Shown in pieces: positions 1,267 to 36,929 of a stretch of 39,944 nucleotides of DNA (positions are counted from its first letter, which is position 1; each line of letters opens with the position of its first letter). A model generated the notes under the pieces. It was not told the origin of the DNA. It saw only the letters and a program-made list of their open reading frames with translations, and did not search any database. The DNA lies in the IMG/VR virus record IMGVR_UViG_3300025127_000084, positions 1 to 39,944 of that record. One strand, 5' to 3'. Both the position numbers and the translations under genes were made by a program. This DNA comes from a virus.

Positions 1267-2142
1267 TTATAAGGGAGTAAGACCAAATTTTGCTGCGTCT
1301 GCGTTAAAATTTCTTTTCACTTCATTTGCTGTTAACGCTTTACCATTGTAAACTCTAAGTATAGACATCTGACCATCCCAACACCATGAAAAATACCACG
1401 ATGTACCAACATATGTATTTCTCGACCCACCATCATGTCCAACCATATTTTGTATAGACGTATATGGATTAGTTGTATAAGTTCCTGATGGTAGTTCACC
1501 ATTATGATATACAACACTATAGCAGTTATTACTGTTATCTGGATTTGCTGCTCTAGATGACCAAACAAAATGATGCCATACATCGTTAGAAAATACACTT
1601 AAGTCATTTGTCGTAGTTATATAAGGTCTGGACCATGAACCAAATCCATCTCTCCAAAGCATTCCTTGATATCTATTGCTTTCAAATCCAAATAAAAAAG
1701 ATCTTCCATCATTACTATTTTTATCCCATCTCCCCATTGGGAATGTAATATTATTATATAGATTATCGTCTGATCTTACCCAATATTCAATTGTAAAATC
1801 ACCTTGAACACCATTGTAAGCGTTACTAAGATCGAAGTCTGAACCCTCGTCACTATTACTAGCATACCCATAATCATTTGATCCATCAAAATCCCAGTAT
1901 GATACGGTTCTACCATCAAGAGTTGCTTGATAATTGTAAACCGGTGCATTTGGAAAATAAAATCTATAATTATCAGAGTCAGATTGAGGTCCATTCACTT
2001 GATTATACATGTAAGTGTTTGAATGACCAATATCATTATTATCAGCATCAGCCCAAAAAACTAAATTTTCGGTTACAATAGGAAGTGCATTAGTTTGTGA
2101 TATTGCTCCTGATAGACTAGGGACTGAGGCTAATGGTGACAT
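1267..2142 (-). CDS. LamG/concanavalin A-like lectin-fold phage protein
   Basis: This 291-residue protein shows the features of a LamG-type jelly-roll domain (Laminin_G_3-like). It has an opening strand near LVFWADAD, a YWDFDGSNDYGYA strand, then DFTIEYWVRSD, WHHFVWSS and a closing GQMSILRVYNGKALTANEV. Such domains bind glycans, so the likely role is host-surface recognition in the virion. I chose ATG 2142 because it follows the stop of the big fibre gene (TAA at 2144) by one base, TAAAATG, which fits translational coupling. An in-frame TTG at 2169 would overlap the fibre gene and is less likely. The first 20 residues (SPLASVPSLSGAIS) could be an attachment segment. Whether it is a separate fibre tip or a partner of the large fibre cannot be told from sequence. 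Confidence 0.8.
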   Translation of the reverse strand: MSPLASVPSLSGAISQTNALPIVTENLVFWADADNNDIGHSNTYMYNQVNGPQSDSDNYRFYFPNAPVYNYQATLDGRTVSYWDFDGSNDYGYASNSDEGSDFDLSNAYNGVQGDFTIEYWVRSDDNLYNNITFPMGRWDKNSNDGRSFLFGFESNRYQGMLWRDGFGSWSRPYITTTNDLSVFSNDVWHHFVWSSRAANPDNSNNCYSVVYHNGELPSGTYTTNPYTSIQNMVGHDGGSRNTYVGTSWYFSWCWDGQMSILRVYNGKALTANEVKRNFNADAAKFGLTPL

Positions 2143-2143
2143 T

Positions 2144-5100
2144 TTACGTAAAGTTAACTTTATTACCAAATACTAGATATGTAGCATCTGCAGTTTTTAT
2201 GATTTGGAATGTGTAAATATCATATCCACTAGAACCACCACTAGGGGCTGCTCCACCTATCCATTGTTCAGTCACTGCACTTCCATCTATTGTTAGTTGT
2301 TCGTAAGAATAATTAGTGTTATTTGTTGAAGATATTATTGTAACTGTAACAGAATCTCCTACACTTAGTTTTGAATTTAATGTAGTTGAACTGTTAAAAC
2401 GTATATTAGGGGTTGCATCTGCAGTTTCTGTGGTTGAGAAATAATGAACTAGACCATCTTCAAGATTAATATCAGTGGCTGCACTTAATTTATTTGCAAC
2501 TATATTAATTGACTCTTTGGACATTCCATTAAGATTTACTTGTCCAGAGAGACTCACATTAAATGAACTATCACCAGAAATCCAATTCGAATTACCAATA
2601 CCTATTGCTAATTGATGATTTCCAGTTGTAGTTGTTACGGTTGCACCATAACCTACTACCACGTTACAAGATCCAGTTGTGATGCCCATACCTGCATTAG
2701 GACCTATGAGTGTATTGAAATTACCAGAACTTACACTATGTCCTGCACAAACACCGAATACTGCATTACATCCACCAGTTGCAGAACCACTTCCCTTAAA
2801 TGCACATCTACCAATCGCAACGTTATGTGATCCAGTGCTGCGGTTCTTTGCTGCTTGATATCCTAGGAAAACGTTACATCCTCCACATGAGGTTGAACCT
2901 GCTTGCTTTCCAACAAAGACATTAAACCAATTATTTCCACCACTTTGATACTGAGTTTCAGCTCCAATTAAAACGTTACCTTGACCCGTTGTTAAGGAAC
3001 ATCCAGCTTTATGTCCTATTAATACATTCTCAGAACCAGTACAAACACAGTGACCAGATCTCCAACCTATTGCTACGTTTGTATCACCACTAGTAAGTTT
3101 TTGTAAAGTACATCCACCTATAGCCGTATTGTAATCACCAGATATACAATCACCAGATGCAACACCCATTCCACCAATGAATGTATTTCCTTCACCTGAT
3201 TGAAGACACGCGCCTGCCAAACATCCAAATGCTATATTATAACAACCTGTTACACCAGTGGATTTTCTAATTCCACCAGCATTAAATCCAATAAAATAGT
3301 TGTCAGATCCAGTGCATAGGGCAGCACCTGCACAGAAACCTAATGAAACGTTATTGTACCCAGAAACAGCGGTTGCAGAGTCTCCTTTTCCCGCATTCAT
3401 TCCAATAGCAATATTACAATTTCCAGTTGTATTTTTACATCCTGCATATTTACCTAAGAAGATGTTAGAATCACCAGATGTTGTACATTTACCAGCACAT
3501 TCACCTACAAAAATATTAAAACATCCACTAGAACCATCAAGACATTTACCTGCATTTGTACCTGCGACTAAGTTTAGATCATCATCAGGAGAGAATCCAC
3601 CACCACTAATACCAGTTAAATTTGAACCGTCACCATAAAAACTAGTGGCACTAACGATACCAGTAGCACTATAAACAGTCGCAATGCCAGCAAGAGTTAC
3701 GTTATAAGAACTATCACCTGAAACCCAACTGGTATTACCAGCACCAATCGCTAATTGATTATTACCAGTGGCAGATGAAACTGTCGCACCGTAACCTATC
3801 AATACGTTACAAGAACCACTTGTAACTGTGCATCCAGCGTTTCGACCAATTACAACGTTGTCAGATCCACTGGTGAATTCAACCAGTGCATTTTGACCAA
3901 ACGCTATATTATAATCTCCAGTATTATTGGCTAATGTGCTTGATCCTCTTCCTGCACATTGACCAATAAACAGATTACCATCTGCAGCATTACATGCACA
4001 CTTACCAGCTGCTGATCCAATGAAGATCGAATTGTCAGCATCAACAGCACATCTTCCTGCCTCACATCCAATCATTATGGCTTTACCTTCGGCAGCAGCT
4101 CTACCAGCATATCTACCAATGAATATTCCGCATCCATTTGTTGGATCAGCAGCCATGCATCCTGCAAAATATCCAATTGCTATAGTATCATCAGATTTTA
4201 CACCACACCAACCTGCACAAGTTCCAATTACAACGTTTCTACTACCAGGAGCACCACCTCCACCTGCCAGCATACCAAGTGCTACGTTCCTAGTACCACC
4301 AGTCAATTGTTGTAATGCTTGCTTACCGATTGCAACATTACAATTACCAGATACACCTGAACCTGTTGAACCACCAGATTCTGCACCAATTGCTACGTTG
4401 AATACTCCAGTTTCCATAAATTTTGAAGCCTGATAACCAATCGCAATATTACAAGCAGCAGATTCTGTCTTATTACCAGAATAACTCCCTAAGAAAATAT
4501 TATGATTTCCAGTAACAACACATTTAGCCATTGCACAACAACCAAGTGCAATATTATCAGATCCAGTAGTTGAATTAGTACCTGCTAATCTTCCAAGAAA
4601 GATATTACGATCACCAGAACTTATATCACATCCTGCTTGTTTTCCGATTGCTATATTATCATCACCAGTATCTAAATTATAAGCAGATTCTTGACCCATA
4701 ATAATATTATTACAGTGTTCCCCAGTGCCACCAGAAGCAATACCATTACCAAAGAAGATATTGTGACAACCAGTTGTCATGGTAGTACCATTACCATTAC
4801 CAAGCGTAATATTGTAACTTGCAGTGGTCATCAGGCACCCTGATCTCTGACCAAATAAGAAGTTATAAGCACCCGTGGTTATAGACTTACCAGTGTGGCA
4901 TCCCATTAAAATGCTATGACCATATCCTCCGCATAATGCTAAACCAGAGTTACAACCAATCATAATGTTGAAGCAGGTATCAGCATCTTTAGCTGCACCA
5001 GCATTTGTTCCTGCGACTAAGTTTCCTTGATCGTCTTGTGAGAATCCACCAGCACTAATACCAGTTAGATTAGAACCATCACCATGAAACGCACTTGCAG

Positions 5101-7975
5101 TTATGATACCAGATGTATTAATACTTACCGTAGTTCCGATACCAACTGATTTTTCTTGACCACTTTCATCAACAAACTCTATATCACCTGTTGCTGATTT
5201 TTTAATTTTTATTGCTGTACTTCCTGTACCAATTTGTATTTCATCTAAACCACTTATTTTTTTCTCACTTGGATCTAAAGTAATTGATGATGTACCTATT
5301 GTAAGAATTCCTGTAATTCTTGCATCACCATTTACATGTAAGGAAGTTCCAGATGCACCTACAGCACCAACTTCAAGAGTGAATCTTGGAATAGTAGTTC
5401 CAATACCTACGTTATAATCACTATTTCCAATAATCCAACTAGTATGTCCGGATCCAATAGCAAGTTGTGAACTACCTGTGGCAGATGGTAGACAAACAAG
5501 ATTACCAATAGCAATATTACAACATCCACTTGTTGCATTAGCACCAGCATAAAATCCTAAAAATGTGTTTCTACTTCCTGTGACATTGTATCCAGAATCA
5601 GCTCCTAATGCAACATTAAAAGATCCTCCAGTTGAAGTTCTTCCAGCACTCTCTCCTACGAATACGTTTCTGTCTGATGTCGATCCAAGACAAATTCCAG
5701 ATAAATTACCAAGTGCAATATTACCCTGACCTGCACAACCTCCAGATCCACTTGATCTTCCTGCATAACAACCAATAAAAATGTTAGAAGTACTACCAGT
5801 TGCATCTTTACCTGCTTTATGTCCTAAGAATATGTTGCAGTCACCAGATGTCATAGATGTTGCATTTTGATAACCAACAAAAATATTATATTTTCCGTTT
5901 GTGTGAGCTGTACCAACTTGGTATCCTAATCCAATATTTCCTAAACCAAGAACTCCAGAAGGATAATGTGTATTTTGATTTTCTAAAACATTATATCCTA
6001 TTGCTATATTGGCACATGATCTTTTAGAATTTTTTAAAACACCATTACCAATACCTATATCCCAACTTCCATCAGTAGCACAACATCCTGCATCACGTCC
6101 AATGTAAGTGTTAACGAGTCCACCTGATAGAGATTTACCTGCATTATATCCAAATAAAATATTACAACCACCATCAGTCACAGATTTACCTGCACAAGAA
6201 CCAATTAAAAGATTACTTACTCCACTTGTTAAATTACATCCAGAGCAAGTATTAGATGGAAATAAGTTTTGATTGCCATCAGCAGTAAATCCACCAACAC
6301 CAGTTAAATTAGAACCATCACCATAATATACAACCGCAGCACCATCTGACCCAATACTTTTACCAGCACCAATTCTTATACCCTCTCTTGCTGTTATTAA
6401 TCCTACCGAGTCTATATTTGTTACATCTTCATACGTAAGTGTGCCAGCGATAGAAACTGTTGTTGCTTCTAATGTTGCAATAGTACCTATACCAGTTACA
6501 TTTAAAGTAGTTAAACTAGCAGGAAGAACTCCTTCGGGTAAACTGCCATTGTTAATATTAGTTGCATTAATATTCTGAAGATTACTACCATCACCGAAAT
6601 ATACTGGTGCCAAACCGCCTGGTAATGCAGTTACGATTCCTACCGAAGTAATTCCTGAATTAATTATATTTTTGAAAGAAGATATTCCAGTTACATTAAT
6701 ATCATTAGAAAATGTTGATACTCCAGATACATTTAATTGATTAAAGAATGAACCTCCTGTTGTGCTTATACCAACAACACTGCCTCCTCCACCTCCACCA
6801 GAAACAGTTTCAAAAACAAAATTCTTACCAGCTGGTTGTGATGTATCTACTTTAAGAAATTTACCATCATACTCACTCAAATTTGTAGCAATACCGACAA
6901 TATCATCAAGATATTGTAACCTCGTCTCTCCACCACCACCTAATGTGGATAATTGAGTTTGTATGCGTCCTAAAAATAATCTATAATGTTGTTGAAGTTG
7001 ATCTAATGTAACATAGTTTTGATCAAGAGGTGTTAATGGATCTGATGTTTCTGTGGATGGTAATGTTTGTTCAATTAAAGTTTCATTTATTTTACTTTCT
7101 TCTTTTAATTTTTCATATACTTCTTCAAGATGTTTAATTTTTGTAGAAAGAACAAAATTTTCTTTCTCCAATTCAGGGACATTTAATTTTTCAATCGTGT
7201 CTTTAAAACCATTTTCAATTTTTTGAAAGTTAATGTTTTGTTCCTTTAAGTTATTTTCTCCTCTGATTAATTCTATTTGAAGATTTTCAACCTTTTCTTT
7301 AAGACTCTCGTTGATTGTTTTATTTACTTTTAATTCTTCTACAACCTTTTTCTTTAATTTTTGTATTTCATTTACTTTAACTTTAAGTGTATTTGATATA
7401 CTTTTATTGCTATCACCAATATCTTTTATATGATTCTCTAAATTACTTACAGCTTCATTAAGATTATTTTCTGAGTTGTTTGATATTTCAAATTGTTTTT
7501 TATCGATGTCGTCGGATAATTGACTTATAACATTATCAAACTCTTCCTTAAATTCAATAAATTTTTGATCTGTTTTTACTTCTACGTCTACTATATTTTT
7601 TTTATACTTAGGAATATCAACTTCAATGAATTCATTTACTACATCTGTAACATTTGAAACTTTTGATTTAATTTCTGCTAATGTTTTTGAATTTATACTT
7701 TTTACATTGCTTTGTAAGTTTTCAATGCTTTCTTCTAATAAGAAAACATAAGAAAGCATTGCATTATCTAAATCTTCTTTCTTAAGAAAATTCTGTAATT
7801 CTTCTTTTAACTGATTGACAACCTCAATAGTTTCTGTAATTTTCTCAAATTTAGACAGATTTTCCTTGAAGGTGTTAAATGATTCTGAATATGAATTCAG
7901 ATTAGGATTACCCACCATGTTTTTTATATTATTACTTTCTCTCTTAAAGTAATCTGAAGGTTTCTTAAGACCCAT
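2144..7975 (-). CDS. Giant tail-fibre-like adhesin with coiled coil and about 56 YadA-head-like repeats
   Basis: The protein has 1943 residues. Residues 1–300 are charged heptad-rich coiled coil after a short MGLKKPSDYFKRES start. Residues about 310–400 (QNYVTLDQLQQHYRLFLGRIQ, a Gly-rich hinge) resemble a segment I know from cyanophage fibres. Residues about 400–560 hold YGDGSNLTGI-type repeats. Three blocks then follow, at about 563–860, 975–1428 and 1457–1812. They consist of the motif N-hydrophobic-x-hydrophobic-G-x-x-A-G every 19–27 residues, like the left-handed beta-roll of YadA-type trimeric adhesins, and are rich in cysteine. The C-terminal 130 residues (SVGDSVTVTI, LTIDGSAVTEQWIGG) match a common cyanophage fibre end. 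No S74 peptidase is visible. It starts two bases after gp16 and is likely a trimeric host-binding fibre. The family role is inferred. Confidence 0.85.
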   Translation of the reverse strand: MGLKKPSDYFKRESNNIKNMVGNPNLNSYSESFNTFKENLSKFEKITETIEVVNQLKEELQNFLKKEDLDNAMLSYVFLLEESIENLQSNVKSINSKTLAEIKSKVSNVTDVVNEFIEVDIPKYKKNIVDVEVKTDQKFIEFKEEFDNVISQLSDDIDKKQFEISNNSENNLNEAVSNLENHIKDIGDSNKSISNTLKVKVNEIQKLKKKVVEELKVNKTINESLKEKVENLQIELIRGENNLKEQNINFQKIENGFKDTIEKLNVPELEKENFVLSTKIKHLEEVYEKLKEESKINETLIEQTLPSTETSDPLTPLDQNYVTLDQLQQHYRLFLGRIQTQLSTLGGGGETRLQYLDDIVGIATNLSEYDGKFLKVDTSQPAGKNFVFETVSGGGGGGSVVGISTTGGSFFNQLNVSGVSTFSNDINVTGISSFKNIINSGITSVGIVTALPGGLAPVYFGDGSNLQNINATNINNGSLPEGVLPASLTTLNVTGIGTIATLEATTVSIAGTLTYEDVTNIDSVGLITAREGIRIGAGKSIGSDGAAVVYYGDGSNLTGVGGFTADGNQNLFPSNTCSGCNLTSGVSNLLIGSCAGKSVTDGGCNILFGYNAGKSLSGGLVNTYIGRDAGCCATDGSWDIGIGNGVLKNSKRSCANIAIGYNVLENQNTHYPSGVLGLGNIGLGYQVGTAHTNGKYNIFVGYQNATSMTSGDCNIFLGHKAGKDATGSTSNIFIGCYAGRSSGSGGCAGQGNIALGNLSGICLGSTSDRNVFVGESAGRTSTGGSFNVALGADSGYNVTGSRNTFLGFYAGANATSGCCNIAIGNLVCLPSATGSSQLAIGSGHTSWIIGNSDYNVGIGTTIPRFTLEVGAVGASGTSLHVNGDARITGILTIGTSSITLDPSEKKISGLDEIQIGTGSTAIKIKKSATGDIEFVDESGQEKSVGIGTTVSINTSGIITASAFHGDGSNLTGISAGGFSQDDQGNLVAGTNAGAAKDADTCFNIMIGCNSGLALCGGYGHSILMGCHTGKSITTGAYNFLFGQRSGCLMTTASYNITLGNGNGTTMTTGCHNIFFGNGIASGGTGEHCNNIIMGQESAYNLDTGDDNIAIGKQAGCDISSGDRNIFLGRLAGTNSTTGSDNIALGCCAMAKCVVTGNHNIFLGSYSGNKTESAACNIAIGYQASKFMETGVFNVAIGAESGGSTGSGVSGNCNVAIGKQALQQLTGGTRNVALGMLAGGGGAPGSRNVVIGTCAGWCGVKSDDTIAIGYFAGCMAADPTNGCGIFIGRYAGRAAAEGKAIMIGCEAGRCAVDADNSIFIGSAAGKCACNAADGNLFIGQCAGRGSSTLANNTGDYNIAFGQNALVEFTSGSDNVVIGRNAGCTVTSGSCNVLIGYGATVSSATGNNQLAIGAGNTSWVSGDSSYNVTLAGIATVYSATGIVSATSFYGDGSNLTGISGGGFSPDDDLNLVAGTNAGKCLDGSSGCFNIFVGECAGKCTTSGDSNIFLGKYAGCKNTTGNCNIAIGMNAGKGDSATAVSGYNNVSLGFCAGAALCTGSDNYFIGFNAGGIRKSTGVTGCYNIAFGCLAGACLQSGEGNTFIGGMGVASGDCISGDYNTAIGGCTLQKLTSGDTNVAIGWRSGHCVCTGSENVLIGHKAGCSLTTGQGNVLIGAETQYQSGGNNWFNVFVGKQAGSTSCGGCNVFLGYQAAKNRSTGSHNVAIGRCAFKGSGSATGGCNAVFGVCAGHSVSSGNFNTLIGPNAGMGITTGSCNVVVGYGATVTTTTGNHQLAIGIGNSNWISGDSSFNVSLSGQVNLNGMSKESINIVANKLSAATDINLEDGLVHYFSTTETADATPNIRFNSSTTLNSKLSVGDSVTVTIISSTNNTNYSYEQLTIDGSAVTEQWIGGAAPSGGSSGYDIYTFQIIKTADATYLVFGNKVNFT
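2540..3605 (-). repeat. Fibre repeat block 3 (about 18 beta-roll repeats)
   Basis: The block opens with GGFSPDDDLNLVAGTNAG and closes with a cap motif, QLAIGIGNSNWISGDSSFN. In between I count about 18 copies of N-h-x-h-G-x-x-A-G. Many copies have cysteine just before the Asn or in the xx position. Boundaries are accurate to about 20 bases. Confidence 0.75.
3690..5050 (-). repeat. Fibre repeat block 2 (about 24 beta-roll repeats)
   Basis: The block opens with GGFSQDDQGNLVAGTNAG and closes with QLAIGAGNTSWVSGDSSYN. I count about 24 copies of the N-h-x-h-G motif. Blocks 2 and 3 share nearly identical opening and closing segments, and are joined by a YGDGSNLTGI linker. Confidence 0.75.
5395..6290 (-). 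repeat. Fibre repeat block 1 (about 14 beta-roll repeats)
   Basis: The block opens with GNQNLFPSNTC and closes with QLAIGSGHTSWIIGNSDYN. I count about 14 repeats. Several are less regular than in blocks 2 and 3 (for example a lost AG in GNGVL and GYNVL), so this block may be older or under different constraint. Confidence 0.7.
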
Positions 7976-8427: not shown

Positions 8428-9225
8428 TCATATATCTTTTTGTTGAGTAGGACTATATGATTTTGCGTCACTGAAAAATGCAGTAGTTTCACTAAATCCA
8501 AAATCATCATCAGGTCCTGCGTCAATTGGATCTGGAGTAACTGTGTATCTTACTTCACGTTTTGCATTCTTAGTATTTGTATCTGTGCTGTAATCAACTT
8601 GAACTTTTCTAATTAATCCATCAGTTGAATCGGCAACAGGACCAAACAGATAAGTCTTTGCAGTAAAACTTAATGTATATATTAACGCTCTCCGAGTTGA
8701 AAAATCACCCTCATAATCATCTTGAAAATTAATAGAGTCCAAAACTATTGGTATGTCTCTTTTCTCTCCAATGGAATTTACTAAATCAACAGTTAAATTG
8801 AAAGATGGTTGGAAGAAAGGTAGTATTTGTTCTACAATCTGTAAAGAATCATCATTTAATTTAGCAAGAATATTTAATTCAAATCCTATGTTGTACGGGA
8901 CAGGCATAAAAACTTTTTTTAAATTAGTGCCATCAGATGCTTTGAATGTTTGTGTAACTCCTGTTTTTCTTGTAGGATCGTAAGTCACATTAGTCATTTC
9001 AAATGACATTCGAGGTAGTGTTATTTGAACTGGTTTATTTAAATCTGCTTGTTGCTCTAATCTTGCTAAGAATTTCTGTGATGGTCCATAAGCTAAGGGA
9101 ACCTTTATTTCACTATAAGTATTCCCATCTTTATCATCATGTCTGATGTAGATTGAATTAAATAATGTTCCAAACGAAACGATTGTTTTTCTAATTATTT
9201 CGTGATAGTAATAAGTTCCTAACAT
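8428..9225 (-). CDS. 15: Tail sheath stabiliser and completion protein, gp15-like
   Basis: This 265-residue protein is close to T4 gp15 (272). The opening MLGTYYYHEIIRKTIVSFGTLFNSIYIRH, split by its conserved YYHEIIRKT core, is the typical start of cyanophage gp15. A long central region (PLAYGPSQKFLARLEQQ, LPRMSFEMTNVTYDPTRK) follows. Gp15 forms the hexameric ring closing the head-proximal end of the tail and joining it to the neck. The start codon overlaps the gp14 stop (TAATG), so translation is probably coupled. The last 50 residues are acidic and low in structure. Confidence 0.85.
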   Translation of the reverse strand: MLGTYYYHEIIRKTIVSFGTLFNSIYIRHDDKDGNTYSEIKVPLAYGPSQKFLARLEQQADLNKPVQITLPRMSFEMTNVTYDPTRKTGVTQTFKASDGTNLKKVFMPVPYNIGFELNILAKLNDDSLQIVEQILPFFQPSFNLTVDLVNSIGEKRDIPIVLDSINFQDDYEGDFSTRRALIYTLSFTAKTYLFGPVADSTDGLIRKVQVDYSTDTNTKNAKREVRYTVTPDPIDAGPDDDFGFSETTAFFSDAKSYSPTQQKDI

Positions 9226-10655
9226 TAAAATGTACCAAATGGATTTCCTTCTGAAAAGTCAATGATGTCATCAGCTTCACTTTCGATTTCATCACTCTTA
9301 TCGTATTTATCAGCAAATTCTGCTGATTCTATAAAGTCAACGGTAAATCTTGCTCCAGAAGTGCTACCTACTGCCACATCACCAGATATGAATGTACCAT
9401 CCGTAGTGCCTAATTTAAGAACATTTTGAACAGAATCCCAAGACTTAACCCTTCCTCTAGCACCAGAAATAGAACCTGTAACAAGTTCATTAAATTTATA
9501 TGTTCCGATACCGGTTATTACTGGAGGTGGGGTAACAGTTGCTATACCAGTTCCTGATGTATATCCAATTCCTGCATCTGATATTAATATTGATGTAACA
9601 AAACCAGCAGCATTTACTTTAGCAATACCAGTTGCAGTGCCCACTCCTGATGTTGGCGTCGTAAATGTAAGAGTTGGATCAATTGCATATCCACTTCCAC
9701 TTGATGCAATACTTACTGTTCCGATACCTGCAGAGGTTTTGACCAAATAAGCAGTTGCAGCAGCACCAACACCATAAGATGTTGAACCGACACCTATAAC
9801 AGTTGATGCAGCACTGACTATTGTTACTGTCGGTGTTACTGTGTATCCTGCACCGGGATTTGTCAACAATATTTCCTTCACAGAAAATACGTTATTAACA
9901 CTTGTTGTAATTGCAACAGCTGTTGCATCTATTCCACCAGCTGGTGCTGTAGATATTGATACATTTGGTGTTTTAGTGTAACCTGAACCATCATCATTTA
10001 ATATAATTTTACGAATGTATCCTGAAGTAGTAGTTACTCCTAAAGTCGCAGTAGATCCTATTGATATGAGTTTAAGAGAAGTTATATATCCTTGATTGAC
10101 TAATTGACTATCAATCGACTGTGTAGTGGTGTTAAGTTGATCCCAACCACCCATCTCATCTTCTAATTCGAAGAGTTCACACTTTAATTGATAGACATAA
10201 TTTTTACCTAATTGATAAAATGGTTCTTCGTGTTCAACAAACTTTATTTCAAAAATTCTTTGTCCTAATGGAAAATAAATTAAATCTCCCTCTCTTGGTC
10301 TTGTAGACACTTCAATTTCATCAGCTGGTAAACTTGCTAAAAATGGTGATATAAAGTCTTCAAACCTTTCCTTAGATATGGTAACTGTCAATTCATCCTT
10401 TAAACTCATACCAAATTTTGTCATTACATCACCTGCACCTCCGTATCCATCAAAGGTATTGACATATGCTTCGATCAAAAAAGTATCATTAAATGTAGAT
10501 GATTGGATTTCAGTTAAAATCGAATCTTTTTTTATAATTTTACGAGGTAAATATACTACTTCTACACCATAAATTTTTAATTGTTCATTAATTAATTCTT
10601 GAACAAGTCGTTGTTCACTTTGTGATCCTTGTAGGAAAAAGGGATTTAGTGCCAT
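9225..10655 (-). CDS. 14: Neck protein gp14-like with an inserted GxGY repeat region
   Basis: Residues 1–170 (MALNPFFLQGSQSEQRL, PRKIIKKDSILTE, GDLIYFPLGQRIFEIKFVEHE) match cyanophage neck protein gp14, which with gp13 forms the head–tail connector ring. The last 30 residues (FADKYDKSDEIE, then EGNPFGTF) also look like a normal gp14 end. Between them, residues about 195–385 hold four GxGY-type repeats (DGSGYTKTP at 222, GAGYTVTP at 269, GSGYAIDP at 320, GIGYTSG at 361) followed by a KFNELVTGSISGARGRV domain. The total of 476 residues is far above T4 gp14 (256). The repeats resemble those in the baseplate giants of this window. The start is ATG 10655, 5 bases after the gp13 stop. Confidence 0.85.
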   Translation of the reverse strand: MALNPFFLQGSQSEQRLVQELINEQLKIYGVEVVYLPRKIIKKDSILTEIQSSTFNDTFLIEAYVNTFDGYGGAGDVMTKFGMSLKDELTVTISKERFEDFISPFLASLPADEIEVSTRPREGDLIYFPLGQRIFEIKFVEHEEPFYQLGKNYVYQLKCELFELEDEMGGWDQLNTTTQSIDSQLVNQGYITSLKLISIGSTATLGVTTTSGYIRKIILNDDGSGYTKTPNVSISTAPAGGIDATAVAITTSVNNVFSVKEILLTNPGAGYTVTPTVTIVSAASTVIGVGSTSYGVGAAATAYLVKTSAGIGTVSIASSGSGYAIDPTLTFTTPTSGVGTATGIAKVNAAGFVTSILISDAGIGYTSGTGIATVTPPPVITGIGTYKFNELVTGSISGARGRVKSWDSVQNVLKLGTTDGTFISGDVAVGSTSGARFTVDFIESAEFADKYDKSDEIESEADDIIDFSEGNPFGTF

Positions 10656-12257: not shown

Positions 12258-12460
12258 GTCTTGTTAAGGTTTTTAATTAATAAAGAAAGTGATTCTTTAA
12301 TTTCTTCAATATCATTTTTCATTTTATTCATTTCATCTTCTTTGTTTTTTTGAGTTTTTATCATTTTTAAGTGTTGCTCATATCCAAGATCATCACAATT
12401 TACGATAGCTCCTGTAGATTTATCTCTATAGAGATTTGAATGTCCTTCAACTTTAATCAT
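12254..12460 (-). CDS. 68-aa coiled-coil phage protein
   Basis: The N-terminal 30 residues (MIKVEGHSNLYRDKSTGAIV, then NCDDLGYEQHL) are a compact conserved-looking segment. The remaining 38 form a charged heptad helix (MNKMKNDIEEIKESLSLLIKNL), probably an oligomerising coiled coil. I recall the VEGHSNLYRD start from cyanophage genomes, where the gene follows the large DUF4815 protein and has no known function. The ATG overlaps the stop of the 2521-aa gene by four bases (ATGA), a strong sign of coupled translation and of a joint role in the baseplate, either as a small subunit or a chaperone; that role is inferred. Confidence 0.8.
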   Translation of the reverse strand: MIKVEGHSNLYRDKSTGAIVNCDDLGYEQHLKMIKTQKNKEDEMNKMKNDIEEIKESLSLLIKNLNKT

Positions 12461-15400
12461 CTGACTGCAATAGTCCTCAACTCTTTCAATTTTGGATATT
12501 CTGATTGATTTGAACTAAACATAACAATTTTCACAGCATATCCAATAAACTCATCCAAATTATCTGCAGTAAATTGATATTCTCTATATTCATTATTAGC
12601 ACTTGTAGGCACAAACGAATCTGGTCTACCATCATTTTTTACTGAATCTACAACTAAATCTCCAAATCCATCATCAGGATCAACTCCAACCAAATTTTTA
12701 TAACCAGGAAATAGTTCAAAAGATTGTGATATATTATCAGAATCTTTCTTAAGTAAACTGTATAATACTCTGAAATCAGAAGATGGTGGTCTGTATCCAG
12801 TTAAAAATACTTTTAATGAGGTTGCAGGTTTATTTAATGTAATTAAATTTGTTACATATGTGGCACTATGAGGATCATCATTAATTGATTTAACCAAATT
12901 ACTGCTACTATAATTTTCAAATCCAATAGGATTATTGATTCTATGTGAAATAAATTCAACTTCAAAGGGTTGAGACATATCTATCGCTGGAGATAAATTT
13001 TCATTATTTGAAGAAAAGTTCATCAATAACGTGAAAGATTTATTTCTTGGTAAAGAAGTCAAATATGCATTTTCATTTAATTTAGATGCAACTAATCTTG
13101 TTCCATTTAAAGAATTGTATGTGTTAAGTTGAATAGGTTCATAACCTTTATCAGCAAATGAAATCTCACTTCCTCCAACACTTGTTCCAGATACAGTTCT
13201 GATTGAAGCTTCAATATTTGTTTTATTTACCTCACCATTTTCTTGAACACCTACAGGGGTTAATGTATCAAAAATTGGAACCAGAGAATCAAAAGCAATA
13301 TTTTCTGTTGATTTGACTTCAAGTCCACCACCAGCTGCGTTTGAATTAAATGATAACTGAGGAGCACCTGTGAAACTTAAAGGGTCAATAGATCGACTTG
13401 CACCATTTTTTGTTCTATCTATTTCTACAAAATAACTATCTAAATCACCTTCTATACTACTAACTGATAGATCATCTCTAACAATCCTTCTAAGAGAAAC
13501 ACCATTTAATTCATATTTTGATACTAGTGATCCTATATCATGTTTTGGAATAATATTTGTGTTATCGACACCTCTTCCATTTGAACCTGATGCTATTTTG
13601 AGTACACCAACATCAACTGCATTATATCCTATAATTTCATTGTTTATTTTAACATATCCTGTATTCGCAGATCCAACTGGGAATCCCTCAAAGGATACAA
13701 AGTTTGTTGTATTTGCAACACTAATATTAGTTAATTCTGAACTTAAAAGATCAGTAGTTAACTCTGTAGGAGTAACATCACTAGCAACATCAGAAATACT
13801 TAATTTATTAGTGCTTGAGTGCATTCCATGATCAAGTGCTTTAACTTTAAACACTTTACCAGAATTTTTACCTGTTTCATTAAATACAGAAGTTACAATT
13901 GTAGTGGCTGCAAGACTAACTATATCACCAGAATCATTAAAGAAACTAACTGCGGATCCAACTGAAAATGTATTCTGATCTCCCTGTACATCTGTAAGGT
14001 AAATAGTATCAATTTTAAGTTGATTACCAAAACCAACTGTAAACTCTGCACCAGTACCTGTTGCTACTCCAGCAGATCCTCCAACAGTTGAAGTTACAAT
14101 TCCTATCTTATCACCTATTCTGTACCCTTGTCCTATACCACCAGCAACTGCTCCTGTTATGACTGTGCCGCTATCAATAACACCATCAGTTGCTGATATA
14201 TTTAATTTTAATCCAGAACCTTTACCAGTTATTGCAAAAGTTTCTACAAAAGTATCAGTCACATAATTTGTTCCTCCATTTGTTAAAATAAGACAATTTG
14301 GATTAGTACCTACTGATTGACCAACACCAGTTATTGTAGCAGTAGTAGCTGAATTTCTTCCACATATTTTTCTTCCTTCTGTCAGAATACCAACTAAAGG
14401 TGATCCAGAATTAATTGTAGTAATTCCGATAGTTCCTGTTTTCGGGAAAGTTTCGATTGGATTTGGACTTAAGTTTGGAACATATCCATTACTAAAATCT
14501 AAATCAGGATTTGTGAGGAACAAAGATCCACTCTGAACAAATTTTGCTTTATATAATTTAAATGTTAAATCTTGCTCGTTATCTTCAGTCCAAAGTGCAC
14601 CGTTTTGTGATTTAAATAATGCACCATTTGCATATTGTTTAGAATATTGTAATGCAGAACCACCAGACGCACCAGGTATTGATTGAGCATTGACAGCAGT
14701 CTCACCATGAACTCCGGTATGAACAATATACTTCTTAGATGATGGAGCTAAAAGAACAATCGCATATGATTTTCCTGCTGGTAAATAAACAGGCTCTGAG
14801 AATATAAATTTAGTTCCAACTGACGCATCATCAGATGTTAAAATATTAGGAGTAACTACTCCATTTAAAACATTAGTAGGTGCTAATGTTTTTGAAGCTA
14901 AAACAGTTCTTGATGGTCTTGCTCCTTGAGTTGTTTCTCTTAATTGTAAAGTAATTTCTCTTTCTTCATCTATAGTTTTGAAAAATACTTCAACTGCAGT
15001 AATAAACGCACCATTTTGATCTTCACTAGTATTGTTCGCAGTGATCTCAACATCACTACCACTTCCAACTACAAATGTCTGTGCTAAAGGATCATAATAC
15101 TCAGCTACAACCGTGACCCTATCCTGATGAATTACACTTATCTCAGTATCAATATCAGCTTCAAATGAATTGTTTATATTTAAATTAACTGAACTTACAG
15201 TTGTTATTACATCATTTTGCCATCTTTCAACGGTTCCACTTGCAGTATAAGGTATTTCTGCTGCATAAACATCTGGATCAACACCAGGAGTAAAACCACT
15301 ATTTGATGGACTACTTGTTATCTTTAAAGTTTTTGTTCCTGTGGAAATACGTATTGGTGGTCTAGGATTAGTATATGGGTTTCTTATAAAGAATGATCCC

Positions 15401-18400
15401 TGTAAATCCCCAAAGTTATCACTTATTAACTTTACATCCTTCACAAATGCCACTGCATTTGATTCTTGCCCTTCGAGTCTAAAGTTTTTACCCAAATATC
15501 CATAGTAACTACCTTGAGCCTCTTCACTTAAAGATCTAGTATCTACATTAATTACAGTTGATGTTTGTGAATAATTTTGTGGTAATGCAATTCCTGATTC
15601 AGCGTATGGATCAAATTGATATGTTTGTGTTGGATTATTAAATTCACCTTCTTTATGGTCAGGTTGACATGCCCTGAAAATCATTGTTGGTGTTTGATTA
15701 TTATTTGTTGAGTCATATACATTTACCTGTTCACCAATTATAAAAGTCCCTTGTGATCCATTTGTCTCACCATTTATGTTTGGAGTTATCTCAACTAACT
15801 TAGGAATAAAATCAATAGCTTGACCATCTAAAAATACATAAAATCTCTTTCCTGATGGAAAATTACTTACTGAAAATTCTGTATTTCTAGATCTCATAAA
15901 ATCATCAGTATCTGATGACTCTCTTTGATTTCTAATAGTAACATCTGCATTATTGAAAGTAGTGCTTCCACTTGCATTTCCTAATAATGATAAATTACCA
16001 GTTATTGTATTTTCACCTGTAATATCACCTAATTTTGTTGTTATGACATCACCATTTGCAACTCCTAATTGAGCTCCTTGACCAGGTCTGAGTCTCTTAG
16101 TTTCAGTGGTATCATTAAAATTAGTCATTGAACCTTGCAGTTCAGCACTAACATTAGTATTCATATTGATTGTGCGATTAATAGGTAGACCAGTTTGAGT
16201 TACGTGATTGTCATCTAGTTGAATTAATCGTGTCCACATATCCATTCTTGGATTAAGGGAAATTTCACCTCTATATGTTGGTATTAAAAATGGGTTTACA
16301 TTTTCAGTGCTTGTTGCAAATACTTGATCTATCCATCCTACTTCTTCATAATCTAATGTAATTAAGTTTCCAGTTTTTCTTACATTCGTATCAAATAAAT
16401 CATAATCTATGGATTGATCAGTAGTTGCACTTGTTGTTGCAACTTTGGGAAGTGGTACTAGTTTAAGAGTATTTCTTGATCTCTCTGGTATAAGTTCGTT
16501 AGATTTTGTGTCTATTTCACTACTAGAAAGTAATTTATTTCTTCTATCATAATTTCTAAATGGATCTACAAAAAATCCACTTTTAAATCTATTTCTACCT
16601 TCAGAATCTAATATCTGTAAAGATTGTACATTTGTTTCTAATAATGATAATGATGTTACCTCTTCTAAATTTGAAACTCTATCCTCTAAAAATCCAATAT
16701 CTTTCATTCGATATCTTTTATTTTCAGTGATAATAATCATAGCGTTCTGAGGAACATAAAGATAGGGTGGTAAAGTTATTGTTGCCAACTTCATCAAACG
16801 ATCATTTCTAACTGGTGGTTTTGGATCAATGGATGAAACACCCTTGTCATACACAAATTCACCCCTTTCACTTAAATATAAACAATCAGTTCTTGGTAAA
16901 TAATAATTATATCCAAGCAGAGTACTTTCATTTGGTGTAATGAATTGTGTTATTGAAGAATCAAAATTTCTAGATCCAAAATCAAATGGTGATTTAGCAT
17001 TTGTTGAAGTATTATAGACAGGGACTCTTGGTCTAAAATCAATTGTATCAGAAGCTCTTATTCCTGAAGAATCTATATTAGGGATGTCATTGGTATATCT
17101 TTCTTTGTCATAACTAAAAACTGTGAAAACATCTCCAGTATCATCTACAGGAACTGAATAATAATCAAATACGATTAATAAACGTCTTGTTGGTTCAGGG
17201 ACTCCTTTTTTTCTTATGATTCTTGAATAATCATAATAATCTTCTCTTTGACCCTTATCTAAGTTATAAGAAAATGTAAGGTCTTTAAATTTGCCAGCAT
17301 TTACTATCGTATTTACTTTTGTTTTAATATCGGATTCATCAAACGTGACTTCATCTTCAGCTGAGAATCTATCACTCGTGAGATAAACTATTCCTAATTG
17401 GTTAGATGCTGGTTTAGAAATAATCCTAGCAACCGCATTACCACCAATTATATTTTCACCAATTATAGCATTATTATTAACATCCACAGTATCACTAAAA
17501 CTTATAGTATCTACCACAGGATCATTATCATCTAATGATTCATATATTGCAATGACTGCAGAAACATCAGGATAATTTAATGATATTTCATCATCTTGAA
17601 CTCTTAAACCAAATCTTTTATCGGGTGTCAATCCATTTGATATTCCACCAAATGGTGAATTTTTTGTTAATCTTACATTATAAGATTGACTTTTGTTAAA
17701 TGTTTTTATTTTACTTTTTATTTCATTCTTCTTAAGAGTCGCATTAAAAATAACAGCATCATTAGTTAATCCATTAATTGTTAATGATGATCCATCTCCA
17801 CCTAAACTAAAAATTTGTTCTGATATGCCTTGAATTGTACCATCATCATTATGAATTGAGTATCTTTCTTGATCAAAACTTTCAAAAGTAGTATTGACGA
17901 TACCAGAATCGGTGGCATTTACACTTAATTGATTGCCAGTTACTGATTTTCCTGTAATTTGTTTAGTAACAGTTAATCTAGAATTTGATAGATCAACAGA
18001 CTCAACATTTAAATTATTAAGTGGAACATAAAGATTTCCACTTCCTCTTATATTTGGAGCTCCTGCGAATAATGAAACTTGCACGTTATTATTTGGAAGT
18101 GAACCATCAAAAATACCAGTTACACTATTTAAAGGTTCTATTATAACTGATAGTCCATCAGATGCAACTTCTTTAACTTTATTAAATATTTCAATGCTAC
18201 TACTAAGTCTATTATATCTTACAACACTACCTTTTCTTAATCCTAAAAATGAATCTCCTCCGGCGGTAATTGTAGAAACACCACCACTTCTATTAGATAT
18301 ATCAACAACGTTAATTCCATTTGGAATTCTAAATGTTTCGAGAAATGAATCAGCTCTAAAACCATCTCCACCAATATTTGGATAACCTGCCGAAGTTGGT

Positions 18401-20022
18401 TGAGATGCTGATTTTATATTTTGAACATTTGATGCAGTAACTACACCTACTGTTCTTGATAAATCAATACCATCTACAGTTAATTCCTCTCCTGGTGCAA
18501 AAGTTCCTGATGTTTGACCAAGAGTAACTATTCCTATATTTCCAGTTTGATGATAAGGTCTAATAAATCCAGAAGCATTTGAATTTTTACCTTTAATAAA
18601 AGATCCCTCTGGTATATTTAAATTATTAATTTTAGTATTTAATGATAATGTTGAAAAAGTTTGTATATCAAATAGTCTTAAATCCCATCTTGTGGTGGTG
18701 CCAGAATATGCAGAATCTTCTAAATTAAAGCTATAAACTCTCGCACTACCTATTAAATCACCCGTACCATTAAAATTATTAAACAATTTAACCACTGATC
18801 CTTGTTTTGGAATACCTCTGACATTATTTACTTTAAGGACGTTACCCATATTAAAATCTATACTAGCATCACTTTTTATTCCTACATCTCTTGGTTTCTC
18901 TACATCTAAAATATTTGTTCCCTGTTTATTTACTCTAAATCCTCTGACGTAAGAAAGACCTGGTGATATTTTTACGCTCATCAAATCATCAGAAGGTGTA
19001 TTTCCGCTTTGTGTAGTATCACCTTCAAAATATAAACCATTATTGCCTAGATTATTATTTAAAGAATTATGTACTGATACTATAAATGGTTTTACAGAAT
19101 AATTTCCAGACTCTTCGAATGTTCGTTCTGCGAGTACCTTTCCTAATTCATTTAAAACACTGGTCTCATCAATTTTTTTTATTTTTCCATTTTCTACCTG
19201 TAGGACTTCAAGAAAATCTGTATCACTTTTATCAGTTAATTCTTTTTTTGTAAGTGTTAATGTAATTTTTAATCTATCCGCACCTGGTGCAGCAAAATTA
19301 GTAAATCCAGATGCGTTATCATAAAGTGAGGAATCATCTTTTGCATCGACTATAGTTTCATTTATTTGTAAACCTATTCTATATGATGGTTTATTGGTAA
19401 AATAATCTAATATAATAGTTTGTTGTAAAACGTCAACAAAATATCCACGTATAAAATACACACCTTTTTCAATACTTGCAATTGATCCAAAAGATGTCGA
19501 ATCACTAGAAATTAAAGATACAAATGGAGTATTAGCGTTTATTGTTGTATTACCATAGATTACATTTTCTGAACATACTAATGATTCTCCATCAATAAAT
19601 TTTGATACTTCTTCATTTCCAAAATTAAAAGCTGTAATATACAGAATGATGTCATCTACAGGATCTGTTGATGGTTTTGCTATGAATTTTATTTCTCCAC
19701 TTATTTTTGATTCTTGACCTGTTACTTTTTTACCCAAAAAATTATCAATATAAACTGATACGTCAACTCCCAAATTACTTGGATTAACCTTAAGTGCAAG
19801 TATATTATCTTCAAATGAGGGATCGCCAGGAATTACTTTAGATCCATCTTTAAATACATAAGTACCAAATTTTTGAATTTGGTTTTGAATTATTGACTGT
19901 GCAGTTGTAAGTTCTCTAGCTTGTACAGGGTAACCAGGTTTATATAAAACTTTATAGAAATCTTTACTCCTATCAAAATCATCATAATATGGACTTACAT
20001 TTAAATTTGTTTTTTGTGTCAT
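12457..20022 (-). CDS. Giant baseplate/tail structural protein with DUF4815-like N-terminus
   Basis: The protein has 2521 residues. The N-terminus (NVSPYYDDFDRSKDFYKVLY, then GYPVQARELTTAQSI) is the signature start of DUF4815-type phage structural proteins. Around residue 1645 lies YYDPLAQTFVVG followed by a jelly-roll-like stretch (EVFFKTIDEEREITLQLRE, LPAGKSYAIVLLAP) typical of the same family. The last 250 residues (FTLLMNFSSNNENLSPAIDM, KPATSLKVFLTGYRPP) match cyanophage versions of this protein. GxxY repeats such as TNGGTNYV occur near residue 1910. In cyanophages this gene follows gp8 and is often placed at the gp9/gp10 position of the T4 baseplate; I do not assign a T4 number. It lies 5 bases beyond gp8 and probably forms a baseplate-peripheral or pin-like part. 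Confidence 0.82.
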   Translation of the reverse strand: MTQKTNLNVSPYYDDFDRSKDFYKVLYKPGYPVQARELTTAQSIIQNQIQKFGTYVFKDGSKVIPGDPSFEDNILALKVNPSNLGVDVSVYIDNFLGKKVTGQESKISGEIKFIAKPSTDPVDDIILYITAFNFGNEEVSKFIDGESLVCSENVIYGNTTINANTPFVSLISSDSTSFGSIASIEKGVYFIRGYFVDVLQQTIILDYFTNKPSYRIGLQINETIVDAKDDSSLYDNASGFTNFAAPGADRLKITLTLTKKELTDKSDTDFLEVLQVENGKIKKIDETSVLNELGKVLAERTFEESGNYSVKPFIVSVHNSLNNNLGNNGLYFEGDTTQSGNTPSDDLMSVKISPGLSYVRGFRVNKQGTNILDVEKPRDVGIKSDASIDFNMGNVLKVNNVRGIPKQGSVVKLFNNFNGTGDLIGSARVYSFNLEDSAYSGTTTRWDLRLFDIQTFSTLSLNTKINNLNIPEGSFIKGKNSNASGFIRPYHQTGNIGIVTLGQTSGTFAPGEELTVDGIDLSRTVGVVTASNVQNIKSASQPTSAGYPNIGGDGFRADSFLETFRIPNGINVVDISNRSGGVSTITAGGDSFLGLRKGSVVRYNRLSSSIEIFNKVKEVASDGLSVIIEPLNSVTGIFDGSLPNNNVQVSLFAGAPNIRGSGNLYVPLNNLNVESVDLSNSRLTVTKQITGKSVTGNQLSVNATDSGIVNTTFESFDQERYSIHNDDGTIQGISEQIFSLGGDGSSLTINGLTNDAVIFNATLKKNEIKSKIKTFNKSQSYNVRLTKNSPFGGISNGLTPDKRFGLRVQDDEISLNYPDVSAVIAIYESLDDNDPVVDTISFSDTVDVNNNAIIGENIIGGNAVARIISKPASNQLGIVYLTSDRFSAEDEVTFDESDIKTKVNTIVNAGKFKDLTFSYNLDKGQREDYYDYSRIIRKKGVPEPTRRLLIVFDYYSVPVDDTGDVFTVFSYDKERYTNDIPNIDSSGIRASDTIDFRPRVPVYNTSTNAKSPFDFGSRNFDSSITQFITPNESTLLGYNYYLPRTDCLYLSERGEFVYDKGVSSIDPKPPVRNDRLMKLATITLPPYLYVPQNAMIIITENKRYRMKDIGFLEDRVSNLEEVTSLSLLETNVQSLQILDSEGRNRFKSGFFVDPFRNYDRRNKLLSSSEIDTKSNELIPERSRNTLKLVPLPKVATTSATTDQSIDYDLFDTNVRKTGNLITLDYEEVGWIDQVFATSTENVNPFLIPTYRGEISLNPRMDMWTRLIQLDDNHVTQTGLPINRTINMNTNVSAELQGSMTNFNDTTETKRLRPGQGAQLGVANGDVITTKLGDITGENTITGNLSLLGNASGSTTFNNADVTIRNQRESSDTDDFMRSRNTEFSVSNFPSGKRFYVFLDGQAIDFIPKLVEITPNINGETNGSQGTFIIGEQVNVYDSTNNNQTPTMIFRACQPDHKEGEFNNPTQTYQFDPYAESGIALPQNYSQTSTVINVDTRSLSEEAQGSYYGYLGKNFRLEGQESNAVAFVKDVKLISDNFGDLQGSFFIRNPYTNPRPPIRISTGTKTLKITSSPSNSGFTPGVDPDVYAAEIPYTASGTVERWQNDVITTVSSVNLNINNSFEADIDTEISVIHQDRVTVVAEYYDPLAQTFVVGSGSDVEITANNTSEDQNGAFITAVEVFFKTIDEEREITLQLRETTQGARPSRTVLASKTLAPTNVLNGVVTPNILTSDDASVGTKFIFSEPVYLPAGKSYAIVLLAPSSKKYIVHTGVHGETAVNAQSIPGASGGSALQYSKQYANGALFKSQNGALWTEDNEQDLTFKLYKAKFVQSGSLFLTNPDLDFSNGYVPNLSPNPIETFPKTGTIGITTINSGSPLVGILTEGRKICGRNSATTATITGVGQSVGTNPNCLILTNGGTNYVTDTFVETFAITGKGSGLKLNISATDGVIDSGTVITGAVAGGIGQGYRIGDKIGIVTSTVGGSAGVATGTGAEFTVGFGNQLKIDTIYLTDVQGDQNTFSVGSAVSFFNDSGDIVSLAATTIVTSVFNETGKNSGKVFKVKALDHGMHSSTNKLSISDVASDVTPTELTTDLLSSELTNISVANTTNFVSFEGFPVGSANTGYVKINNEIIGYNAVDVGVLKIASGSNGRGVDNTNIIPKHDIGSLVSKYELNGVSLRRIVRDDLSVSSIEGDLDSYFVEIDRTKNGASRSIDPLSFTGAPQLSFNSNAAGGGLEVKSTENIAFDSLVPIFDTLTPVGVQENGEVNKTNIEASIRTVSGTSVGGSEISFADKGYEPIQLNTYNSLNGTRLVASKLNENAYLTSLPRNKSFTLLMNFSSNNENLSPAIDMSQPFEVEFISHRINNPIGFENYSSSNLVKSINDDPHSATYVTNLITLNKPATSLKVFLTGYRPPSSDFRVLYSLLKKDSDNISQSFELFPGYKNLVGVDPDDGFGDLVVDSVKNDGRPDSFVPTSANNEYREYQFTADNLDEFIGYAVKIVMFSSNQSEYPKLKELRTIAVR

Positions 20023-21681: not shown

Positions 21682-24600
21682 TTAACTTACACCCGGAGTT
21701 TTCAATGCACCAGTTTTTCTGAGTGTTTCTTCACCACTATTTCTGATGATTGTTGGGAATGTAGTTAATCCTACATCAACAGTTAAACCTGTAACACCAA
21801 TCGATATCGGACTTGATGATCTTGTTAAATTACTCATTTTTCCAAGAGAAAATTTACCAACTGGAATATCAGGAGTGCTAATAGTGGTTCCAATACCAAC
21901 ACTATTTGAATCAATCGTGCAAGTTATAATACCTGTTACGGTATTACCTCCTCCAACTACTCCTAATGTCGTAATTCCTGCAATTATGTAGATATTATCA
22001 ACAAAAGATGTACCAATTCCAACAATATTTGTGTCAACACCATCAGTTGATGTAACTCCATTACCAACAGTTGTATCGTATATGAAAATTGGGTCTCCAA
22101 TTTGAAGTGGAACTAAACCTTCAGTGTTTATACCTGTAAATTCAATTGATAATTGAGAATTAAATGTTGTGGTTGTTATTCCTGTTATAATACCTGAAGT
22201 TGACAAAATTGATATATTACTTCCAGCTACTGTTTCCTCTATGACATCTTGTCTGGGAATTAATACACTTGGTGGATTTGAAGAGGTGTATCCTATACCA
22301 CCACTCAGAATTAAAGTTTCTGATATAGTTCCACCAGCTCCTATAGTTGCTGTAGCTGTAGCTGTTGGATTTGCAGTTGTTCCGATTCCTGTTGTTGGAA
22401 TACCTATTGATATGGAAGTTGTTGCTCCAAGATATCCAGATCCTCCACTTATAATATTTAAAGATGTAATCGTTCCGGCTGATGAAACGTTTGCACTCAA
22501 TGATGCTGCAACTGGATCAGGATTTCCAGAGATCAATCTAAAAGAGAAATTTGGACTGGCATCATCCTCATAATTAAACAAAGAAACATCATCAAAAAAT
22601 AATTGTTGATCTGAAGTAGACACTTTACCAATTACTTTAGCTGTTGGAAACACATAAGTCTCAATTAAATTTCTTGTTTTCGGTATTTTAATACCATTAA
22701 CTTCTAAATCTGTTTTTTGTTTGAATAAATTTACAGGTTTAAATACGTTTTCGTTAACTCCCTCTCCATAGTAAATATTAGTTTCTAATTCATCAGAATC
22801 TCTAATAGATGTAAATCTTCTTTTTGTTTGTGATATTGTTGTATCATCAGATGGATTTTTTAATAATTGCAATTCATCACCAACTTCAATAGGAGAAGTT
22901 TCTGCATCAACAACAAGTGAATCAACTTGAGTTGTTCCTTTATAAAAATATATTTGAATATTATCCTGTGCTTCAGGAGGGTCAATGAATACTATTGATG
23001 TTCCACCTTTGAAGGTATAAGTTGTTGATGGATCTTGTACAACACCATTTCTCATTACTAATAAAACGTTTGCGAGATCAGTTGTATAATTGCTACCTTC
23101 TTCTATACTTATTAAATTATTATTATATTTTAATGGAAATCTTACTCTTTCTCCATTCTGTAATTGTTTAATAGAATCAATATAATCCAATTCACCAAAT
23201 TGCCAAAGTGTAAAATCATCTTGGAATACTTTGGTAACTTCTAACTCAAAGTTTTTTACCGGTTGAGCGTAACTAGAGTCAGTAACTAAACCCACGACAG
23301 TAAATTTATCTCCAATCTTAAATGCATTTCCATTTCCTAATAATTTGAAATTTTTAACCTCAAATAATGTTGATCCTATACCTACATTAGTAGAAACTGG
23401 TCCTACATTTAAAGTAACCTTTACATTACTTCCAGTTTCAGTTGTTGGACCAATACCCAATCTAGACAAACCTGTTATTGGTAAATTATCATAACTTGGA
23501 GAAGATACAAATATTTTTGGATTCTTATAGTCTGTGCCACCTGCACCAATACTGAAAGATAATGATCCTCCAGCATCAATACTTGAAACACTAATAACTG
23601 CACCAGAACCTACATTAGTTCCAACATTAGCACTGAAAATATTATCAGTTACCTTTGTTATTGCGGTTGATATACCACCACCTAATGGATCAGTTGGTCT
23701 GGGATATGAATGCTCTGTGAAGTAATTATCCTTTGAACATGTATATGTTAAGGAATAATTATCAATTGTAATTAAATCATCTGTAGACATTCCATGATTA
23801 TTAACAGTAAATGTAATAATTCCAGATTTAGGATCATAATCTGCAGATGTAGGTGTTAATTGAGCTGCATCACTACTTCTATTAATAGCTCCAGTATTTG
23901 CAGATACAAATCTATGAATATAACCGGGATCAAAAACTGTGACTCCAATACCACCAATTCCATTATATCCTGATCCAAAAGTAAGATCTCCATAAAATGG
24001 TAATATTTCACCTCCACCATTATATAAGTGAGTAGTAGCTCTTTGACCAATATTTACACCAATTATATTAGTAGCAGCAACAGAAACAACTGGGAAAGTC
24101 CCTCCAATAGATAGACCTCCACTAAATGGCACGTTTATCAATTGGACTTCATCTTGACTTTGATCACCAAATACCCAATCAGGATCTGTTTGAGTTGTTA
24201 TCGTTAAAATACCAGTTGTATTATTATAAAAAGCTGTGACAATACCTAATGATGATCCAGTTGTAGCTACTCCAACTATTCCTGTTATAGTTCCGTATGA
24301 GTCGAATTTTGCCTTTAAATTAGCACCTTTTAGTGGAGCAAATCCTAAACCGGGTGTAGATCCTAGAGAGACAATAACCCCTCCTCTGGGAAGTTGATTT
24401 TGATTAACGTCTTCATCACTTATTACAATATTATTACTCTCAATTAATCCTGTAAATTTGACCGTTGATACACCAGATGCAGCATCTTCAACTATTTCAA
24501 AATTTCCATCTGCATTGTTAAATGTAGTTGGAGTTTGAAATACTCCATTTAATAAAAGTAATCCATTTCCTGTTGTACCAACTCCAACAGTATCAGCTGC

Positions 24601-36593: not shown

Positions 36594-36929
36594 TTAACGA
36601 TTGATTGTTCTTATCTTATAATCGTCTGTATCAAAGTAATAAATGAGCTCATTTGCAACTTTTTTGGGTGAAGAAGACCCACATGTGAAGATATCAACTG
36701 CTGCACAACCTTTTTCTGGCCAAGTATGAAGAGAAAAATGACTTTCGGCAAGAGAAATGTTGACAGTCACCCCATGAACCGGAAAAGAGTGACTAAAAAC
36801 GTTCAAAATTTCCATCCCTTCGTCTTCAACCGCAGAAATCATGATTTTTTCAAGATTTTTACGATGATTAAGCAAATAAAATGACACATCGTAAAAATTT
36901 ATCAATAAATGTTTGCCCATTTTTGACAT
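36594..36929 (-). CDS. speD: S-adenosylmethionine decarboxylase proenzyme, prokaryotic type
   Basis: This 111-residue protein has the small bacterial/archaeal class AdoMetDC layout. It converts S-adenosylmethionine into decarboxylated SAM, the aminopropyl donor for spermidine. The motif LAESHFSLHTWPE gives autocleavage between Glu62 and Ser63, where Ser63 becomes the pyruvoyl cofactor. His68 and Cys83 (DIFTCG) are the processing and catalytic residues. These numbers coincide with those I recall for the Thermotoga maritima enzyme. The length is normal and the residues are intact, so it should be active. I use ATG 36929, one base after the stop of the 250-aa gene; ATG 36920 is an alternative that would shift numbering by three. 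speD is a known cyanophage auxiliary metabolic gene, perhaps raising polyamines for DNA packing. It closes the operon beginning at 38995. Confidence 0.93.
   Translation of the reverse strand: MSKMGKHLLINFYDVSFYLLNHRKNLEKIMISAVEDEGMEILNVFSHSFPVHGVTVNISLAESHFSLHTWPEKGCAAVDIFTCGSSSPKKVANELIYYFDTDDYKIRTINR

Follow-up and report, generated by a model that had tools for sequence, protein, structure and literature searches.

We consider it reasonably probable that the long repeat protein encoded on the 39,944-nt stretch of viral DNA analyzed here (IMG/VR record IMGVR_UViG_3300025127_000084; hereafter the window) is a modular virion fibre of an uncultured marine T4-like cyanophage, built from traded, capped solenoid blocks, with an exchangeable tip and with cysteines studding the turns of its coils. 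Its three blocks appear to be members of an interchangeable pool recombined among related viruses, and not copies made within the gene. The open reading frame lies at 2144 to 7975, as originally predicted, but on the minus strand; it starts with ATG, encodes 1943 aa and is directly downstream of gp16 (small terminase). The surrounding genes run gp25, gp6, gp8 and gp13 to gp16, and the gp6 of the window matches that of S-SKS1 best (67%); together these place the window among the T4-like cyanophages, in agreement with the T4-like setting first proposed. The PHROG matches of the fibre were phrog_6002, a virion structural protein (E 1e-86), and phrog_4636, a tail spike (E 3e-64); Pfam and NCBIfam searches returned nothing useful, and a search of the PDB by sequence gave no match at E 0.1. 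A second assembled contig (L001) is 99.98% identical to the window over 13,159 bases and carries a fibre of unchanged length, so misassembly of the window alone does not account for the coil arrays described below.

The N-terminal 380 aa (6836 to 7975, minus strand, as are all features given here) form a helical, coiled-coil-like region with a hydrophobic period of 3.6 residues and only 5 Gly and 4 Pro in 300 aa, followed by a conserved SDPLTPLDQ...ETRLQYLDDIVG segment. This adaptor, presumed to be the part that attaches to the virion, is 89% identical to that of the sister phage L002, 74% to that of L003 and 42% to that of S-SKS1. We infer a virion location for the protein from homology, and consider it rather unlikely that it is another virion structure, such as a baseplate decoration or whisker, in place of a tail fibre that reaches the receptor: its PHROG labels do span head and packaging to tail spike, and the S-SKS1 adaptor homologue is annotated as a baseplate wedge subunit, but the build is fibre-like, with adaptor, long shaft and exchangeable tip, and the adaptor homologues in B23 and S-CAM7 are annotated as tail fibre.

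The shaft of this putative fibre consists of three arrays of coils, each closed by a cap. Block 1 contains 15 coils (aa 588-854, 5414 to 6214), has its opener GFTADGNQNLFPSNTCSGCNL just upstream, from aa 562, and ends in cap 1 (QLAIGSGHTSWIIGNSDY, aa 837-854, 5414 to 5467). Block 2 begins with the opener NLVAGTNAGAAKDADTCFN, contains 25 coils (aa 985-1424, 3704 to 5023) and ends in cap 2 (QLAIGAGNTSWVSGDSSY, aa 1407-1424, 3704 to 3757), and block 3 contains 19 coils (aa 1468-1805, 2561 to 3574) and ends in cap 3 (QLAIGIGNSNWISGDSSF, aa 1788-1805, 2561 to 2614). The predicted end-cap QLAIGxGxxxWxxG(N/D)Sx(Y/F)N indeed starts at aa 837, 1407 and 1788, and the predicted NLVAGTNAG opens blocks 2 and 3 at aa 985 and 1468. 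The linker GDGSNLTGI, expected at each junction, precedes block 2 (aa 965-973, 5057 to 5083) and block 3 (aa 1448-1456, 3608 to 3634), but the motif match before block 1 reads GDGSNLTGV (aa 552-560, 6296 to 6322). The shorter GDGSNL occurs at aa 461, 552, 965 and 1448, the extra copy at 461 preceding the blocks. The C-terminal tip domain (aa 1806-1943, 2147 to 2560) matches phrog_5906; the window fibre has no Peptidase_S74 domain, and such tips are present in two relatives (L019 and L020 ORF 1-2070).

The 59 coils comprise 56 plus three cap coils, which matches the predicted total of about 56 repeats, in groups of about 14, 24 and 18, once the cap coil is left out of each array. Thirty-seven of the 59 are 17 residues long, with the consensus N-[IV]-x-[IL]-G-x-x-A-G-x-x-x-T-[TS]-G-x-x. 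Residues 481-1800 hold 62 instances of the loose core motif, whereas 1000 shuffles gave 10.4 on average and 20 at most, so the motif is six times as frequent as shuffling would predict. The full string N-h-x-h-G-x-x-A-G, as first written, occurs only 25 times, so the figure of 56 is a count of the looser N-h-x-h-G coil.

Comparison with related loci supports the view that capped blocks of this kind are modular and that their number varies. The same order of linker, opener, coils and cap recurs among fibres of related marine phages, with openers and caps present in L002, L009, L018-L021 and many of L033-L049, and the window fibre falls in the phrog_6002 group both by its sequence match (E 1e-86) and by this shared block grammar. 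Fibres at these loci have from 1 to about 8 openers, with openers and caps called by pattern and block counts being minima because contig ends cut open reading frames; they reach 3700 aa and have at least five kinds of N-terminus. The tip of the window fibre is 89% identical to that of the L013 and L014 fibres, which have neither coil arrays nor Cys, and S-SKS1 keeps the adaptor homologue with a different shaft (1192 aa, without coils). Judged from these comparisons of sequence, openers, interiors, adaptors and tips have had separate histories. A scan of 84,980 prokaryote genomes found the opener in none, at the sensitivity of that scan, and we therefore set aside a bacterial origin for it. 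On five contigs (L040, L041, L043, L046 and L049) we observed two or three different coil fibres each, mostly Cys-rich and with a different N-terminal adaptor each time.

The clean breakpoint comes from one sister phage, L002, whose fibre runs off its contig. L002 is 89% identical to the window at the nucleotide level upstream and 88% in the adaptor up to aa 532, lacks block 1, and then carries the segment corresponding to aa 954-1143 (4548 to 5115) at 93.5% nucleotide identity. This segment, bounded by a linker and by an N-I-A-[LI]-G coil start, takes in the opening ten repeats of block 2, after which L002 switches, in frame and at a DNIA[L/I]G coil start, to different repeats. The first L002 block closes with the same type of cap as cap 1, followed by NVGIGTT, and its second opens like block 1 of the window. 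We suggest that blocks are traded between phages by homologous or micro-homologous exchange, with the linkers, the caps and the conserved N-h-x-h-G starts as the sites. A block traded in this way would stay in register, so that the length and surface of the shaft could change with the fold intact. A phage shaft could thus alter both by exchanging capped blocks where the start of a coil is conserved, with L002 a natural example of the breakpoint. In passage experiments with cyanophage S-TIM4, recombination was inferred within a 2235-aa gene with a YadA domain (PMC6224464), which supports such a mechanism, though in another phage.

The original prediction explained the three blocks as whole-block duplication within the fibre gene followed by a change in repeat number, and took identity above 50% between nearest blocks as support for this. 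The pairwise block identities are 42, 40 and 47%, below that line. When the repeat order of one block was permuted, the observed interior alignment scores were reached in 26, 151 and 81 of 200 shuffles, i.e., the true order scores no higher than a permuted one and there is no collinear signal between block interiors. At the DNA level clear similarity is confined to the ends of the window's blocks (116 nt at 80% and 137 nt at 77%), the openers of blocks 2 and 3 being 80% and their caps 77% identical. Similarity of the same degree occurs between blocks of different phages, the block 3 opener being 79% identical to L002 in nucleotides. In identity rankings on these short segments, which are not a tree, every window opener is closer to another phage's block than to its sister blocks (block 1 to the second block of L002, 65%; block 2 to L018 and L002, 98%; block 3 to L019, 67%), and caps 1 and 2 have their best match outside the window fibre, while among the caps compared the nearest relative of cap 3 is cap 2 (54%). 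We could detect no tandem array at the DNA level in the fibre gene, so slippage-type length change is unlikely, and tandem expansion was likewise rejected; what L002 shows in its place is exchange in frame. Recent duplication of blocks within the gene is contradicted by these results, and whole-block duplication in general we regard as improbable: blocks 2 and 3 resemble each other in opener and cap, which is compatible with an old duplication of these two whose interior was later overwritten, but the non-collinear interiors, the foreign affinities of the openers and the missing tandem array all point away from duplication within the gene.

The earlier suggestion of a YadA-like beta-roll stands in part. 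AlphaFold2 (AF2), given nine homologous stretches of related loci as input, modeled aa 970-1262 (block 2) as a confident solenoid (pLDDT 80, pTM 0.81) with one strand per coil at a spacing of 17-18 residues in most of the model, and this has a YadA-like look. In a run on block 3 plus the tip, strands were about 17 residues apart, with pLDDT mostly 62-88 over model residues 31 to 270, and the tip was poorly modeled. Structure matches in the PDB were led by the trimeric autotransporter heads CbpF (9u93; prob 0.96, TM 0.34-0.38, E 0.13) and BoaA (3s6l; prob 0.92, TM to target 0.55, E 0.57), none reaching E 0.001, and viral structure neighbours extended down to 5e-11 and included FhaB-like, YadA-named and S74 fibres. 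Like the heads of BoaA (3S6L), CbpF (9GH4/9U93) and BpaC, the window fibre is a predicted solenoid with an invariant Gly in every coil. YadA heads have a 14-residue coil with the motif GxNSVAIGAxSxAx (PMC9543794), whereas the coil here has 17 residues and no YadA family in Pfam matched the fibre at E 0.1, which rules out formal membership of the YadA heads. A trimeric autotransporter adhesin was also rejected, in that the fibre matches no C-terminal membrane beta-barrel anchor family and its C-terminus is phrog_5906. The roll nonetheless probably looks and works like a YadA-type roll, and by analogy with other phage fibres and with YadA heads it would be a homotrimer. The "very long rigid rod" of the original prediction is overstated: BpaC measures 81.5 A across layers 23 to 42 (PMC9543794), and if that rise (about 4.3 A per coil) applies, we estimate that 59 coils would give a roll of about 25 nm, in three segments, which the helical adaptor could exceed in length.

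All 60 Cys of the fibre lie within the coil region. Cys makes up 5.9% of residues within coils, about twelve-fold its share (0.47%) of the remaining 10,870 aa encoded in the window. In 26 fibres we surveyed 719 distinct coils of 17 residues (5.1% Cys) and found Cys at 12.7, 14.3, 13.1, 19.2 and 13.2% at positions 6, 7, 10, 11 and 17, respectively; at turn positions 6, 7 and 11 no other residue is as frequent. Cys is almost absent from the coil core, with no instance at positions 3, 8 and 9 and two each at positions 12 and 15 among the 719 coils; zeros at positions 1, 2, 4 and 5 are uninformative because the search pattern fixed them. On this survey, Cys is concentrated on the coil turns in this phage group. 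The opener does not imply Cys, since three opener-bearing marine fibres (L042, L047 and L048) have none. Base composition, or drift at unconstrained turns in one lineage, seems a very doubtful source of the enrichment. The turns are the variable positions of the coil, and TGT accounts for 50 of the 60 Cys codons in an AT-rich genome, but Cys tops three turn positions while making up 0.47% of the remainder of the window, where GC is similar or lower, and other phages with the same coil have 0-2.3%. Cys is also better kept than other turn residues between the window and L018 or L019, at few sites (window versus L018, 7 of 7 Cys against 27 of 47 other turn residues).

This distribution suggests a surface thiol or disulfide system on the fibre. 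Neighbouring coils have Cys in the same column less often than expected (31 versus 41, p 0.03) and Cys are slightly under-dispersed, at about 0.9 per coil (p 0.01), which makes within-chain ladders unlikely; intra-chain disulfide ladders were rejected, same-column Cys being avoided and not favoured. We prefer disulfides between chains or fibres. Seawater is oxidising, and the exposed Cys might act once the virion is released into it, their simplest role being to staple the trimer chains or neighbouring fibres. Less likely, in our judgment, though still a real competitor, is that the Cys are free thiols, metal ligands or host-surface binders: no pairing pattern stands out within or between neighbouring coils and the spread is even, but an oxidising medium speaks against this reading. 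So does the precedent of phage Milano, with a disulfide cross-linked tail and 2.1% Cys in its structural proteins (PMC10811340), which shows that disulfide-linked virions exist. Milano shares Cys-rich virion proteins with the window phage, but its Cys network is in the sheath, tube and baseplate (PMC10811340) and the Cys here are in a repeat fibre shaft. If the Cys cross-link as we prefer, such fibres would be unusually rich in thiols for a virion and would offer a case, open to direct testing, of phage stability adjusted to oxic seawater. More tentatively, and short of an even chance, a group of uncultured marine T4-like phages may have evolved Cys-studded modular solenoid fibres of traded blocks, redox-stapled or redox-sensitive, in which a single chain carries as many as about 165 Cys.

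We found no paper on Cys-rich cyanophage fibres in the open-licence literature. The fibre of marine virus AG-345-L05 (MH319754, 2491 aa, unannotated) has the same coil, with four openers, four caps and 75 Cys, but differs in its adaptor (MAIKISGSTI) and tip and is about 31% identical. The fibres of S-B05 and Syn1 share this coil and have an almost identical cap (QLVIGxGSxxWIxG), but one array each, with 1 and 4 Cys; these cultured phages thus provided single-array, Cys-poor forms only. S-TIM4 ORF108 (2235 aa) and S-SZBM1_54 are virion-associated proteins of T4-like cyanophages, as the window fibre is presumed to be, and both have a YadA domain, the S-SZBM1 protein having been found in virions by mass spectrometry (PMC9146016). 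The multi-block grammar and Cys enrichment set the window fibre apart from these two as far as the accessible portions of their descriptions go.

Other genes of the window were noted in passing. The open reading frame after the fibre (1267-2142, minus strand), without a match in Pfam or PHROG, likely starts at the ATG at 2142, just past the fibre stop, and not at the listed TTG at 2169. Between gp6 and gp8 (21682-34227, minus strand) lies a 4181-aa open reading frame in which Pfam recognizes a YHYH domain (E 2.7e-19), a giant protein of the baseplate region, and gp8 is adjoined by a 2521-aa open reading frame (12457-20022, minus strand) with phrog_358 and DUF4815. Beside gp25 (36594-36929 and 36931-37683, minus strand) are two genes, one resembling S-adenosylmethionine decarboxylase and the other in a "ferredoxin" PHROG. 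The gp13-like neck protein (9225-10655, minus strand) is extended at its C-terminus by a long stretch of repeat-like segments that match tail fibre and baseplate PHROGs.
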